64,000 bases of DNA from Protaetiibacter intestinalis (GTDB lineage Bacteria > Actinomycetota > Actinomycetes > Actinomycetales > Microbacteriaceae), in NCBI RefSeq assembly GCF_003627075.1, contig NZ_CP032630.1, positions 2,356,001-2,420,000 of the forward strand, in the 5' to 3' direction. Below are positions 49,729 to 55,254 of this stretch, piece after piece. The position numbers were made by a program, and so were the translations under genes. A model generated the notes under the pieces. It saw only the letters and a program-made list of their open reading frames with translations, made no database searches and was not told the DNA's origin. Within the stretch, counting starts at the first letter, position 1; every line of letters starts with the position of its first letter.

Positions 49729-51213
<1,485 letters not shown>

Positions 51214-51215
51214 TC

Positions 51216-51473
51216 ATGGCCCTCAACGTCTCCGTCGTCTCGGCGGAACGCGAACTGTGGTCGGGCGAGGCCAAGCAGGTCGTCGCCCGCACCACGGTGG
51301 GTGAGATCGGCATCCTGACCGGCCACGAGCCCGTGCTCGGCATCCTGGCGCCGGGGGAGTCGCGCATCACCACGACCGACGGCACCGTCGTCAAGGCGCG
51401 CGTGGAGGACGGCTTCCTCTCGGTGCAGGGCGACACGGTCACGATCGTCGCGGGCACCGCAGAGCTCGTCTAG
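51216..51473 (+). CDS. atpC: ATP synthase F1 subunit epsilon, short form
   Basis: An 85-residue protein containing only the N-terminal beta-sandwich (LNVSVVSAERELWSGEAKQVVARTTVGEIGILTGHEP). The C-terminal two-helix domain, which blocks ATP hydrolysis in many bacteria and makes typical epsilon 120-140 residues long, is missing. The stop TAG at 51471-51473 is clean, with no continuation in another frame obvious, so this looks like a true short form rather than a frameshift. An in-frame ATG at 51183 lies inside atpD and is not used. Confidence 0.93.
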   Translation: MALNVSVVSAERELWSGEAKQVVARTTVGEIGILTGHEPVLGILAPGESRITTTDGTVVKARVEDGFLSVQGDTVTIVAGTAELV

Positions 51474-51497
51474 CCCGCGCCTGCCGGGCATGTCAGA

Positions 51498-51517
51498 CTC
51501 GGAGAAAACTCTCCGAG
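51498..51517 (+). promoter_or_regulatory. Perfect 8-bp hairpin over the first SipW-operon ribosome site
   Basis: CTCGGAGA (51498-51505) and TCTCCGAG (51510-51517) pair perfectly around AAAC. The right arm holds the start of the CGAGGA ribosome-binding region (51514-51519) of the gene starting at 51524, so the hairpin could hide it. It also lies 25 nt after the atpC stop and could end atp transcription, though no T-run follows. Which role applies is open. Confidence 0.55.
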
Positions 51518-51523
51518 GATCAC

Positions 51524-52120
51524 ATGACTGAGAAGACCGGTGCGGGCGCGCGGGCGAGGTCGGTCGCGCTCGTGCTCGTCGGTCTGCTGCTGGGTGGAGC
51601 CGGTGCGGTGACCACAGCCGCGGCGTGGAGAGACGACGTGTTCCTCGGCGCCGAGGCGACTCCGTCGACGTTCGACATCCAGGCGCGCACGGGGACCGTC
51701 GACCGCCATCCGACCGACCCTGACATCGCCCCGGTGTGGACGCCGGGAGCCTGGTACGACGTGGGGCTACCCGGTGACCCCGACACGCTGGTCGTGCCGA
51801 TCGTCGCTCCGACCGTCGGCGACCTGCACCCGCTGACGAGCTATGCGGTACCCATCGAGCTCTGCAACGACGGCGATGTGGACGGCGAGATCGCGGAGGC
51901 GATCATCACGACCGACACGGGGCTGGTCGAATTGACGAGCATCGATGTCGACACCATCGATGTGGGGACGACGATCCCGGCGGACTCGTGCGCGTCGGAT
52001 GGCGCCGCCGAACCGCTCTTCGGGTGGATCCAGTTCACGACGACGGACTTCGGGCATGACCTCGACGGTAGTGCGGGGCAGTTCTCGATTCAGATCTCCG
52101 TGGTGGGTGTCCAGCCGTGA
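51524..52120 (+). CDS. SipW-dependent-type signal peptide protein 1 (putative matrix/surface protein)
   Basis: A 198-residue exported protein. After a basic start and a hydrophobic helix (14-32) comes TAAAWRDDVFLG with Trp35, then FDIQ, which matches the alternate signal peptide (AxWxD...FD) processed by SipW-type peptidases, as in TasA and CalY. The mature part is Asp/Thr-rich, beta-strand-like, with two Cys (LCNDGD and DSCASD) that could pair. No sorting motif. Overlaps the next gene by 4 nt (GTGA). Function as fibre or matrix subunit is inferred. Confidence 0.75.
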   Translation: MTEKTGAGARARSVALVLVGLLLGGAGAVTTAAAWRDDVFLGAEATPSTFDIQARTGTVDRHPTDPDIAPVWTPGAWYDVGLPGDPDTLVVPIVAPTVGDLHPLTSYAVPIELCNDGDVDGEIAEAIITTDTGLVELTSIDVDTIDVGTTIPADSCASDGAAEPLFGWIQFTTTDFGHDLDGSAGQFSIQISVVGVQP

Positions 52121-53001
52121 GCGCACGCGAGATGGGGCTCGTCGCGGCAGGGATGGTGACCGGTTTCGTGCTGGTCATGGGTGTGTCGAGCGGGGCTCTT
52201 TTCGCCACCGAGGCTGCGTGGGTGGATGACGGGAAGGCCATCGTCCCCGTCGAGGCCGGCGCCATCGCGGACGACCGTGAACTGCCCTTCACTTCGGGCG
52301 ACGCCAACACGATCGTCGGAGACGATCCCGACGAATGGACCTGGACCAAGAGCGACAGCTCCGACGATCCGCCCGTTCCGAACGCCTTCTGCGCGGCGTT
52401 CGAAGTGTCCACGACGTCCGAGACGCCGGTGCCGTTCCGGGTCAGGGTGAATCTCGCCGTGCAGCCGTTCAACTTCCCGGCTCCGTTCGCGACAGGGGAC
52501 TACACGAGCAATGTCTGGGTCGATCCCTTCTCGTCGTGGGAGGAGACGCCGGACTTCGTGAACACCGGGTTGGTGGACATCGTCCCCTTCGAGAACGCGA
52601 CGATCTCGGCGAGCTCTCCGCTGACGATGAGGGTGTGCGCGAATGTGCCGGATCCGCCGTGGAGTCCGCCCGGGGACACGACCTACACAGTGCTCGCTCC
52701 CGTGCTGGACGTCAGCGGTGGGAACCCCTGCGTGACGCTGACGGTCGTGGGCCACACCCCCTACTTCCTCGGCTTCACCGCGAACTTCGACTATCACGCG
52801 CTGTTGGATGACGCCCTCACCGACGGCGTCATCACGCAAGCTCAATACGACTCGTGGTTGCCGCGGGTGTACTGGTGGGGGAGTACAGCCTCCGGTGTCA
52901 CGGGAGCCGACCACCTCGTCACCTTCACCGGCTACAACGCCCTGACCCGATTCGTCAATCTGTTCTCGAACGTCGTCCTGACCGCCTGCACCTACAACTG
53001 A
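52117..53001 (+). CDS. SipW-dependent-type signal peptide protein 2, larger
   Basis: A 294-residue exported protein. The hydrophobic helix (7-30) is followed by ATEAAWVDDGKA with Trp35, the same position as in protein 1. The mature domain is rich in Asp, Pro, Trp and Phe and has four Cys (NAFCAAF, MRVCANV, NPCVTL, LTACTYN), so two disulfides are possible. It is longer than typical TasA/CalY subunits and has no recognised domain; it could be an adhesin or fibre tip. GTG 52117 overlaps protein 1. Confidence 0.7.
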   Translation: MSAREMGLVAAGMVTGFVLVMGVSSGALFATEAAWVDDGKAIVPVEAGAIADDRELPFTSGDANTIVGDDPDEWTWTKSDSSDDPPVPNAFCAAFEVSTTSETPVPFRVRVNLAVQPFNFPAPFATGDYTSNVWVDPFSSWEETPDFVNTGLVDIVPFENATISASSPLTMRVCANVPDPPWSPPGDTTYTVLAPVLDVSGGNPCVTLTVVGHTPYFLGFTANFDYHALLDDALTDGVITQAQYDSWLPRVYWWGSTASGVTGADHLVTFTGYNALTRFVNLFSNVVLTACTYN

Positions 53002-53031
53002 TCACCACCCACCACCGAATAGGAGATCCAC

Positions 53032-53607
53032 ATGAACACCACACCAGCCCATGAGGGCCCGCGGCGTCGGGCCATCGCCCTTCGTATCGTCCTCGGAAGC
53101 GTCGCCGTGCTCGGCATCGGCGCGGCGGCCACCTCGGCTGCCTGGGTCGACGACGTGTTCTTCGGCGCGACCGCGACCGCGAGCAGTTTCGACCTGCAGG
53201 GCGCACCTCTCGGTGCGGCCGCGAACTGCGCTGCGGTGGCGGAGGGGGCCTGGGAGGACATCGCCGGCGGCACGGAGACCACCTCGACCGACTACGTCGA
53301 CATCACCACCACGGCGCTCGGCGCGATCGCCCCCGATGAGACCTACACGGTGCCGTTCTGCCTGCGCAACGCCGGAACGATCGGTGGCGATATCGTGGTC
53401 ACCGAGGTCACCGTATCCGGTGACCTGGTCGACGAGGGATACCTCGCCGACGCCGACGCCGATGCGACCCTGGCCTCTCCCACGATCGGCGCGTCGAATG
53501 CCACGGTCCAGGGCACGCTGACCATCGAGACCCCGGACACCTGGGACGACGGCGCCTTCGGTCTGGACGCCACCATCGTGATCCAGGTGACGGGGACGAG
53601 CGACTGA
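53032..53607 (+). CDS. SipW-dependent-type signal peptide protein 3 (putative fibre subunit)
   Basis: A 191-residue exported protein. Helix 14-36 is followed by SAAWVDDVFFGATATASSFDLQ (Trp38), the clearest copy of the AxWxD...FDLQ motif in the set. The mature part has alternating Thr/Asp-rich strands and two Cys (NCAAV, PFCLRN). It is similar in size and layout to protein 1, suggesting duplicated subunits. AGGAGAT lies 5 nt before the ATG. A 19-nt gap leads to the signal peptidase gene. Confidence 0.75.
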   Translation: MNTTPAHEGPRRRAIALRIVLGSVAVLGIGAAATSAAWVDDVFFGATATASSFDLQGAPLGAAANCAAVAEGAWEDIAGGTETTSTDYVDITTTALGAIAPDETYTVPFCLRNAGTIGGDIVVTEVTVSGDLVDEGYLADADADATLASPTIGASNATVQGTLTIETPDTWDDGAFGLDATIVIQVTGTSD

Positions 53608-53626
53608 CCCTCGACTTCCCGGTTCC

Positions 53627-54175
53627 GTGAGGACGCTCCGTCGGATCGGCGACACCCTGCTGTGGGTGCTCGCCTCCGTCGGCGTGCTCGCGGGACTGGT
53701 GTGGGCGGCGAATGCCGTCGGCTGGGTGCAACCGCTCATCGTCGTCTCGGGGTCGATGTCGCCGAAGATCGCGACGGGCGACCTGCTGTTCGCCGTGCCG
53801 GTGGAAGCCCGTGAGCTGCGTGTCGGTGAGGTCGCGACCCTGCCGAACCCGCAGACGGGCCGCTACATCACGCACCGGATCGTCGGGATCGAGCAGCTCG
53901 GGCAGGACTACCTCGTCACCATGCAGGGAGATGCCAACGGCACCCCGGACCCCGAGCCGTACCGCGTCGCCTCGGACGACAGGGTCTGGCATCCCGTGGT
54001 GACGGTCCCCGGTGCGGGGGCGGTGCTGGAGAGGGTCCTGCGTCCTGCGGTGATCGTCCCGGCCATCGTCGCCTTGGTCGCACTGATCGGGTTCACGATG
54101 GTGCCCTCCGGCCGTCGCCGGGCGCACGCCCATCGCGCGGGGGATCCGATCGATGAGCCGGGGGCGCGCGCATGA
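53627..54175 (+). CDS. Signal peptidase I, SipW/ER type (S26B)
   Basis: A 182-residue membrane peptidase that should cleave the three proteins upstream. N-terminal helix about 11-33; nucleophile Ser43 in VVSGSMSPKIATGDLL; His83 in RYITHRIVGIEQ takes the place of the Lys of ordinary SPase I; the conserved acidic box is MQGDANGTPDPEPY; a C-terminal helix at about 144-163 follows. The Ser/His dyad and two-helix layout are those of SipW and archaeal/eukaryotic enzymes. GTG 53627 is the first start in frame; the end overlaps the next gene by 4 nt. Confidence 0.88.
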   Translation: MRTLRRIGDTLLWVLASVGVLAGLVWAANAVGWVQPLIVVSGSMSPKIATGDLLFAVPVEARELRVGEVATLPNPQTGRYITHRIVGIEQLGQDYLVTMQGDANGTPDPEPYRVASDDRVWHPVVTVPGAGAVLERVLRPAVIVPAIVALVALIGFTMVPSGRRRAHAHRAGDPIDEPGARA

Positions 54176-54723
54176 GACGGCGATGGGTCGGAACGGCCGC
54201 CTTCGCCACCGTCGCGCTGAGCGCGATCGGGTTGGCCGCGGGTGGTGCGGCGCACGCCGCGCCACCCGAGCCGACCGTCTTCCTGCTGGAGTTCGACCTC
54301 CTCGAGCAGGGAGTGCCGCAGACCCGCAGCGACGACTTCTCGCTCGGTCGTGAGGCTCAGCTCACCGGGTTCTCGTGGTTGGAACGCGAGGGAGTCATGC
54401 AGGATGTCGACCTGCGGATCGAGGTGTGCGCGTCGAGCGGCGTCTGCGTCGACCCGCAGAACCTGGCCGGACCCGTGACGTTCGCGGCGGGTGCCACGAC
54501 GGTCACCGTCACGGCGACGCTGACGGCGCCTCCGGGAGAAGACCCGACCGGCAGCGTCCTCGGGCGACTGACCTTCACCGCGGACGACCGGTTGGGAGCG
54601 ACCGGGGTGGACGTCGGCGCGGCGGTGATGTGGGCGGCTGCGGTGCTCATGGTCGGATTCCTGTTGATCGCGCTCGTGCGCTCACGCCGCTTCGCGGATC
54701 GCGCCGACGCCGACGCACCGTAG
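54172..54723 (+). CDS. Sec-exported single-pass membrane protein of the SipW cassette
   Basis: A 183-residue protein with an ordinary Sec signal (cleavage likely after AHA, residue 29), an extracellular beta-rich domain of about 110 residues with Cys pair EVCASSGVCVD, and a C-terminal membrane helix (about 149-169) with a short basic cytoplasmic end (RSRRFADRADADAP). It lacks the AxWxD motif, so it should not be a substrate of the SipW-like enzyme. Overlap of 4 nt with the peptidase gene ties it to the operon; a membrane anchor or assembly partner for the fibre is possible. Confidence 0.6.
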   Translation: MRRRWVGTAAFATVALSAIGLAAGGAAHAAPPEPTVFLLEFDLLEQGVPQTRSDDFSLGREAQLTGFSWLEREGVMQDVDLRIEVCASSGVCVDPQNLAGPVTFAAGATTVTVTATLTAPPGEDPTGSVLGRLTFTADDRLGATGVDVGAAVMWAAAVLMVGFLLIALVRSRRFADRADADAP

Positions 54724-54732
54724 AGTGGAGCC

Positions 54733-55254
54733 ATGCTCATCGTGATGGCGGGACTTCCGGCGGCCGGCAAGAGCACGATTGCCGAGGTGGTCGGCAATCG
54801 GATGGGGCTGCCCGTCGTCTCCGTCGATCCGATCGAGACCGCGATCCTCTCGGCGGGCATCGACGCCGACCAGCCCACGGGGCTCGCCGCGTATCTCGTC
54901 GCGGGGGCGTTCGCGGATGCCGTGCTCGCGGGCGGCGGCAGCATCATCGTCGACGCGGTGAACGCCGTGAACCCCGCGCGGGAGCAGTGGGTGAAGCTCG
55001 CCGAGGCGCAGAAGGCGGAGATCCGCTTAGTCGAAGTGGTCTGCTCGGATGCCGAGCTGCACCGTGAGCGCCTCGAGGCGCGTGCGGCGCGACTCGCCGA
55101 GACCGCGCTCCCGGGGGCCTTCGCGGTGGAGCAGAGCCTCGACGAGTGGGAGGAGTGGTCGGGGGCCAGCGGCGCCATCGCCCGCATCACCCTCGACTCG
55201 GTGGAACCCCTCGGCGTCAACGTGGAACGCGCGCTCGCGTTCCTGCAGCGCTGA
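54733..55254 (+). CDS. Small P-loop kinase-like ATPase
   Basis: A 173-residue AAA_33-type P-loop protein. Walker A GLPAAGKST is at residues 7-15 and a conserved Asp in VSVDPIETAI follows, as in small-molecule kinases such as shikimate or chloramphenicol kinase-like families. The substrate cannot be told. TAGAGT (54721-54726), which begins with the stop codon of the previous gene, ends 6 nt before the ATG, so it probably starts its own leaderless transcript. Confidence 0.75.
   Translation: MLIVMAGLPAAGKSTIAEVVGNRMGLPVVSVDPIETAILSAGIDADQPTGLAAYLVAGAFADAVLAGGGSIIVDAVNAVNPAREQWVKLAEAQKAEIRLVEVVCSDAELHRERLEARAARLAETALPGAFAVEQSLDEWEEWSGASGAIARITLDSVEPLGVNVERALAFLQR

Follow-up and report, generated by a model that had tools for sequence, protein, structure and literature searches.

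A five-gene secretion cassette in Protaetiibacter intestinalis

The window analyzed here is a 64,000-nucleotide stretch of the one-contig, 3.10-Mb genome (G000) of the actinobacterium Protaetiibacter intestinalis (contig NZ_CP032630.1, positions 2,356,001 to 2,420,000), and the system under study is a cassette of five plus-strand open reading frames (ORFs) at window positions 51524-54723, in which a SipW-type signal peptidase stands beside candidate fiber proteins. An initial annotation had drawn five genes here, and all of them were found at the places and lengths it gave. ORF1 (51524..52120) encodes an exported small protein of 198 amino acids (aa), proposed as a second fiber subunit, whose SipW-type signal ends in TTAA and continues past the predicted cut as AWRDDVFLGAEATPSTFDIQ. 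ORF2 (52117..53001, 294 aa) is likewise exported and combines a SipW-type signal and the N-terminal strand of its neighbors with a four-Cys domain that has no known relative; we propose it as a TapA-like cap, initiator, or tip. ORF3 (53032..53607, 191 aa), the proposed core fiber subunit, is an exported small protein with a SipW-type signal in which ATSA precedes AWVDDVFFGATATASSFDLQ. ORF4 (53627..54175, 182 aa, GTG start) is a signal peptidase of the archaeal/endoplasmic reticulum (ER) type, and ORF5 (54172..54723, 183 aa), the proposed sortase-anchored base, carries a Sec-type signal, a small two-Cys domain, the motif LGATG, a hydrophobic helix, and a basic tail.

Overlaps of 4 nucleotides join ORF1 to ORF2 and ORF4 to ORF5. 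ORF1, ORF3, and ORF5 have two Cys each, ORF2 has four, and ORF4 has none, in keeping with the earlier description of a larger Cys-rich component and of even Cys numbers in the substrates. Signal peptides and helices of ORF1-3 and ORF5 were assigned by eye. None of these four proteins matches a Pfam or NCBIfam family above cut-off, and a scan of positions 51200-54900 for promoters and terminators found none.

ORF4 is a SipW-type peptidase with linked substrates

ORF4 passes the curated cut-off of TIGR02228, the model for archaeal/ER-type signal peptidases of family S26B (74.2 bits against 51.85), and its best match in the PDB is SEC11C/A (E 1.7e-14). Ser43 and His83 are invariant in all ten aligned peptidases (alignment A5), giving a Ser/His rather than a Ser/Lys dyad and bearing out the earlier assignment of both residues. 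The protein scores below the curated cut-off of NF046067, the model for SipW of Bacilli (39.5 bits against 190).

ORF1, ORF2, and ORF3 each carry a hydrophobic helix that ends in A-A-W-x-D, with the Trp at residues 35, 35, and 38, respectively, and FDIQ or FDLQ follows downstream in ORF1 and ORF3, all as first described. Among the 325 stop-to-stop frames of at least 100 aa in the window, AAWxD occurs three times, once in each of these ORFs. Because the motif is confined to three neighbors and the gene order is kept in other genomes, the cassette is not a product of chance. Each of the three proteins thus presents what marks a SipW substrate, namely an Ala and an aromatic P2' residue after a hydrophobic signal helix, with a linked S26B peptidase. 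They match neither TIGR04088 nor TIGR04089, the models for SipW-cognate substrates, and searches of the genome with these models also returned nothing at the cassette; TIGR04088 matches five of 21 ORF3-type proteins (alignment A11) at E <=0.01, the best at 0.0015. The assignment of ORF4 as a SipW-type S26B peptidase with linked AxW substrates is much surer than the fiber picture as a whole.

The cassette is rare, coherent, and patchily distributed

The cassette is real, coherent, rare, and patchy across the order. Searched against 5.8 billion database proteins, ORF1 found 11 relatives and ORF2 and ORF5 one each (query excluded), with Agromyces, Leifsonia, and Protaetiibacter among the named relatives in the ORF1 search. 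A profile of ORF1 and ORF3 matches 62 of 398 family genomes. In the best nine of these 62, inspected at a cut of at least 36 bits that was our own choice, an ORF4-type peptidase is always present in the cluster; it adjoins ORF3 in eight genomes and is separated from it by ORF5 in one (L043). In the other 53, about two-thirds of the matches listed stop at or before profile position 80, within the signal and strand region, and the remainder extend further. The ORF5 profile matches 119 of the 398 genomes at E <=0.001, at full length in seven (214-250 bits), whose clusters all include ORF3 and ORF4. The remaining matches score at most 31 bits, and all but one of those listed cover chiefly the C-terminal end, where the sorting signal lies. 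At E <=1e-8 the same profile matches 10 of 396 genomes in a sample of the order, comprising the genome of the window and nine others that all have ORF3, ORF4, and ORF5 in that order, and two of 296 genomes in a sample of the class, comprising the genome of the window and one weak match. A scan of genome contigs added Protaetiibacter mangrovi only.

ORF3 is present in all 18 inspected cassettes. The 16 inspected genomes with ORF5 all have ORF3 and ORF4, in the order 3-4-5 in 15 and 3-5-4 in one, and the full order 1-2-3-4-5 occurs in three genomes (that of the window, L039, and L040), so that the gene-neighborhood search suggested in the initial annotation did recover the five-gene set. The ORF2 profile matches nine of the 398 family genomes, of which one (G220) showed no ORF2 on inspection and one genome (G312) was left out. 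ORF2-type genes are found in 11 of the 18 cassettes, including a short one in L098 and one in L095 that was missed by the first ORF2 profile and placed by alignment. Alignments A4 and A9 were built without proteins P0007 and P0012, the latter being the L039 protein.

Directly after ORF5, five loci encode a further protein with an AAW or AW signal: L042 (8393-8959), L044 (8271-8837), L099, L100, and L102. It overlaps ORF5 by 4 nucleotides in L042 and L044 and belongs to the ORF3 family in L099, L100, and L102; L100 additionally has an ORF2-type gene downstream of it.

ORF1 and ORF3 are proposed donor-strand fiber subunits, and ORF2 has their N-terminal strand

The two similar small subunits of the earlier description share 37% identity over 133 aa, which marks ORF1 and ORF3 as paralogues. 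Compared with the PDB, a joint ORF1/ORF3 profile (21 rows) finds AbpX, a bundling protein from archaea that forms donor-strand fibers, first (E 4.1e-5); a second AbpX chain follows at E 0.004, aligned from profile position 51 and thus with the cut site outside the alignment. A profile of the ORF3-type proteins alone (21 proteins) also places AbpX first (E 0.025), with both TasA structures among the six matches listed (0.66 and 0.75), and a profile of the ORF1-type proteins alone places AbpX first at E 0.24, level with an unrelated protease. TasA, ABP, and ABPx are described in excerpts of PMC11952670 as donor-strand exchanged fibers. Given the AbpX profile match, the fold of ORF1 and ORF3 is probably TasA-like and not new; the earlier view that the mature domains are unrecognized holds for the C-terminal domain of ORF2 and for the domain of ORF5, which have no convincing solved relative. 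AlphaFold2 models ORF1 as a beta sandwich (mean predicted local distance difference test score, pLDDT, of 74.5), and residues 31-45, modeled at low confidence, would be compatible with a free strand.

Following the predicted cut, the 21 ORF3-type proteins are hydrophobic at mature positions 2, 6, 8, 10, 12, 17, and 19 (fractions 0.90-1.00). The 14 ORF2-type proteins are hydrophobic at positions 2, 6, 8, 10, 12, and 17 (0.79-1.00), with positions 7 and 9 at 0.50. The ORF2 and ORF3 profiles have only 20 columns in common, and these are the post-cleavage segment (hhalign probability 91, E 9e-7). ORF2 finds no match in the PDB at E 10, none of the 14 ORF2 members matches NCBIfam at E 0.01, and the ORF2 structure model (pLDDT 48.5) was unusable for judging whether the protein has the V-set Ig domain of a TapA-like initiator; the short ORF2 of L098 (152 aa) was left out of the alignment (A10). 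ORF2 would appear to consist of a strand in common with the subunits and a remainder unrelated to them in sequence, like TapA beside TasA. In TasA, the donor strand comprises residues 28-38, immediately after the SipW cut (excerpts of PMC9674648), and TapA has the AFHDI/AFNDI start in common with TasA, possesses a closed domain, and starts filaments (excerpts of PMC10151520). Since ORF2 has the strand without the subunit domain, it could donate a strand and probably not accept one.

Secretion by a SipW-type peptidase may also serve monomeric proteins. On this account the peptidase and the cut sites are real, and ORF1-3 are surface or secreted proteins, such as wall adhesins or binding proteins, that form no polymer. 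The generic immunoglobulin-like beta sandwich of the ORF1 model would suit such a role, as would the weak Pfam matches to NPCBM-associated (3/21) and CARDB (1/21) domains among the ORF3-type relatives (A11), from whose Pfam matches TasA/camelysin is absent. We nevertheless consider it rather unlikely: the strand is conserved to about position 19, beyond the stretch that the peptidase is expected to read, and is common to proteins with unrelated C-terminal domains, and both this and the AbpX profile match argue for a polymer.

ORF5 carries a probable sortase-type anchor

The ORF5 protein of the window ends in LGATG, a hydrophobic helix, and RSRR. L-x-x-T-G stands ahead of the helix in 14 of 15 ORF5 proteins (as LAxTG, LPxTG, LGxTG, or LSATG), the remaining one (L104) having PPWTG. 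Among the NCBIfam sorting-signal models, that for LAVTG (NF058582) matches seven and that for LAXTG three of the 15 members at E <=0.01; the window's own ORF5 matches no sorting-signal model at this threshold. A class E sortase scores above the model cut-off in all 18 cassette genomes tested, that of the window included, and class E sortases use LAxTG (excerpts of PMC5148588). A scan of 22 loci of 12-15 kb found no class-E-type sortase gene within them. The motif in 14 of 15 proteins and the sortase in 18 of 18 genomes together suggest that the ORF5 anchor may be covalently linked to the wall. The initial annotation had seen in ORF5 an overlapping protein with a membrane anchor at its C terminus; overlap and anchor stand, and the anchor itself, given the L-x-x-T-G of the family, is probably of the sortase type.

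The two Cys of the small ORF5 domain are conserved. ORF5 profiles found nothing convincing in the PDB (best E 0.3; 0.099 in another run, over a C-terminal stretch). Two candidate kinships were rejected: an LPYTG-anchored protein encoded elsewhere in the genome gives, with ORF5, an hhalign alignment of just 13 columns, all of them at the signal end, and the subunit families are weak matches in profile comparison. The ORF5 proteins of L042 and L044, near-copies of that of L041, were left out of alignment A12.

On a competing account, ORF5 has a plain membrane anchor and serves the peptidase, with which it is translationally coupled, as a partner or chaperone; it would then be neither a sortase substrate nor a fiber base. 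The 4-nucleotide overlap of ORF4 and ORF5 recurs in all seven loci compared, in one of them with the order reversed, as coupling to the peptidase would have it, and the account is further favored by the departure of LGATG from LAxTG and LPxTG, the failure of the window ORF5 to match a sorting-signal model, and the lack of a class-E-type sortase gene in the scanned loci. Against these stand the L-x-x-T-G motif with helix and basic tail throughout nearly the whole family, the LAVTG matches, and the weak matches that the ORF5 profile has in other proteins: nearly all of those listed cover the C-terminal end only, as expected of a sorting signal. We therefore regard the partner role as unlikely.

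A model for a wall-attached donor-strand fiber

We lean towards the view that the cassette makes a SipW-type donor-strand fiber fixed to the cell wall by a sortase-anchored base. In the model, ORF4 would cut each of ORF1-3 between A and A-W, at the motif observed in all three, and each cut would free an N-terminal strand of the form A-W-x-D-x-V-x-F-x-A-x-A, in which mainly alternating residues are hydrophobic. The strand of an ORF3 or ORF1 subunit would then enter the beta sandwich of the next subunit to build a polymer, as their sequence kinship to AbpX and TasA suggests, and ORF2 may cap one end of the fiber, like TapA. ORF5, which has no donor strand, would leave the cell by its ordinary Sec signal, after which a housekeeping class E sortase could link its L-x-x-T-G motif to the wall; more speculatively, ORF5 might hold the opposite end of the fiber, perhaps by accepting the strand of the last subunit.

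A more specific form of this model, possible in our view and rather doubtful, is a polar fiber covalently attached to peptidoglycan, with ORF2 as a distal cap bearing a new domain, ORF1 and ORF3 as the shaft, and wall-linked ORF5 accepting the last free strand. If true, such a fiber would bring TasA-type assembly and sortase anchoring together in a single machine, and Gram-positive bacteria would have a counterpart to chaperone-usher pili that needs no usher.

Several observations weigh against the wall-attached fiber. The match to AbpX varies with the alignment, being strong for the joint profile and falling away for the ORF3-type and ORF1-type profiles taken singly. Structure prediction, suggested in the initial annotation as a check, did yield a sandwich for ORF1, and fold searches with that model then returned nothing significant or specific; ORF1-3 also match no TasA or camelysin model of Pfam or NCBIfam, just as they miss TIGR04088. 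The alternation of the strand is impure, as positions 7 (0.90) and 15 (0.86) of the ORF3-type proteins are hydrophobic too, and Ala was tallied as hydrophobic in these counts. The strand of the window's own ORF2 has diverged (AWVDDGKAIVPVEAGAI), with four of 15 identities to ORF3, and co-variation of ORF2 and ORF3 strands from the same locus is weak (p 0.07 over 10 loci, 0.04 over eight) and confounded by relatedness. ORF2-type genes at three loci (L092-L094) carry the AAW signal with no ORF3, ORF4, or ORF5 relatives within 13 kb, the genome of L092 having a cassette elsewhere. For the anchor, the window motif is LGATG and not LAxTG, which makes the wall-anchor reading less certain for this strain, and class E sortases are probably near-universal in these bacteria, so that their presence discriminates little.

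Comparison with known SipW, pilus, and sortase systems

The same genome contains a canonical actinobacterial SipW cassette at G000:C1:2201000-2206850 (L005:4083-9841). Its substrates belong to TIGR04089 and TIGR04088 and its peptidase to TIGR02228, and it also encodes a 758-aa protein of DUF11 repeats and an LPYTG-anchored protein. Both cassettes set substrates, an anchored protein, and such a peptidase side by side. They differ in the cut site (A-Y-F or A-Y-W in the canonical cassette, A-A-W here), in gene order and partner proteins, in their peptidases (29% identical), and in their substrates, since ORF1-3 match neither of the two substrate models. A kinship of the ORF3 profile with the canonical TIGR04089 substrate was considered and rejected, hhalign giving no overall relation. 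The canonical substrate alone finds no fiber protein in the PDB, so a missing PDB match says little there. The placing of LPxTG anchors next to peptidases of the SipW type may be more widespread among actinobacteria.

That the AxW proteins are cut by ordinary signal peptidase I (SPase I) or by the other SipW-like peptidase of the genome, with ORF4 serving otherwise, is very improbable. In its favor, TIGR02228 finds one more peptidase in the genome (91 bits) and a further, weaker match (21 bits). Against it, that second peptidase sits in the canonical cassette with substrates of its own, an aromatic P2' residue hinders SPase I of E. coli (excerpts of PMC10269814), and 17 of the 18 inspected cassettes have an ORF4-type peptidase adjoining the ORF3-type substrate, the other (L043) having it one gene off.

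Like tapA-sipW-tasA of Bacillus subtilis, the cassette combines a dedicated Ser/His signal peptidase with an aromatic P2' residue (A-F-N-D-I there, A-W-x-D here) and overlapping genes, and in both a fiber subunit is accompanied by a second protein, TapA there and ORF2 here, with a common N-terminal strand and another domain. It differs in that ORF1-3 match no TasA or TapA model and in having two subunit paralogues and an added sorting-signal protein. A further likeness is to the archaeal bundling pili (AbpX of Pyrodictium abyssi, Pyrobaculum pili), AbpX being the best PDB match of the ORF1/ORF3 profile. We know of no sortase anchor or ORF2-type partner in those pili. They are archaeal, and are described as donor-strand exchanged fibers (excerpts of PMC11952670).

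In the sipW-bsaABCRSD operon of Clostridium perfringens, a matrix protein that forms polymers likewise depends on SipW for secretion and is accompanied by accessory secreted proteins; the operon differs in having a two-component system, of which there is none among the five cassette genes. In excerpts of PMC7395162, BsaA polymers are mainly extracellular, no LPxTG was seen, and the neighboring srtB was unneeded; the TasA/CalY/CapP system of B. cereus is described as sortase-independent (excerpts of PMC13082335). Two SipW-type fiber systems are thus described, at least in these excerpts, as sortase-independent or not tightly bound to the wall. With substrates of class E sortases, such as the Streptomyces chaplins, ORF5 has in common an L-x-x-T-G motif, a helix, a basic tail, and a class E sortase in the genome; it differs in the LGATG of the window and in a mature domain that had no convincing relative in our searches.

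What appears to be new here is that SipW/TasA-type fiber secretion, itself of a known kind, is combined with an anchor of the sortase type and with a new family of partner proteins. Searches of the open-licence PMC literature gave no paper on SipW in Microbacteriaceae and, among the titles and abstracts listed, none on the cassette or on sortase-anchored SipW fibers. A compact cassette of peptidase, subunits, strand-sharing partner, and sortase-type anchor makes fiber attachment testable by removal of single genes and would extend donor-strand fibers to this actinobacterial group. The analysis also yields profiles of the ORF1/ORF3, ORF2, and ORF5 families, three families that Pfam and NCBIfam leave unnamed for the window proteins.

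Genome position and neighboring features

The window has the cassette between a gene that we take to be atpC and a presumed kinase-like gene, and P. mangrovi has it between the kinase-like gene and a presumed yaaA, these names being assigned by eye. The three genes are consecutive, with no cassette, in seven of nine genomes of the genus. The placement behind the ATP synthase operon reported in the initial annotation is therefore correct as a position, and the association is incidental.

A strong RNA hairpin with an 8-bp stem lies between atpC and ORF1 (51498..51517, plus strand). The surrounding region (51474-51545) folds at -33.9 kcal/mol (z -4.7), and the putative ribosome-binding GAGG ahead of the ORF1 start codon falls for the most part within the 3' arm. 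By eye, an inverted repeat seems to precede ORF1 of P. mangrovi too. At the other end, the ORF5 stop codon falls inside TAGAGTGGAGCC (54718-54735), the leader of the kinase-like gene, and TAGAGT[AG]GAGCC precedes the kinase-like gene in four of the seven genus genomes that have no cassette. The pattern resembles that of a cassette insertion in which the kinase-like gene kept its leader. A second sortase gene lies elsewhere in the genome, at L048 (G000:C1 near 883 kb), beside a gene for a protein with an LPFTG-type end, an arrangement that resembles, by eye, a sortase-built pilus locus.

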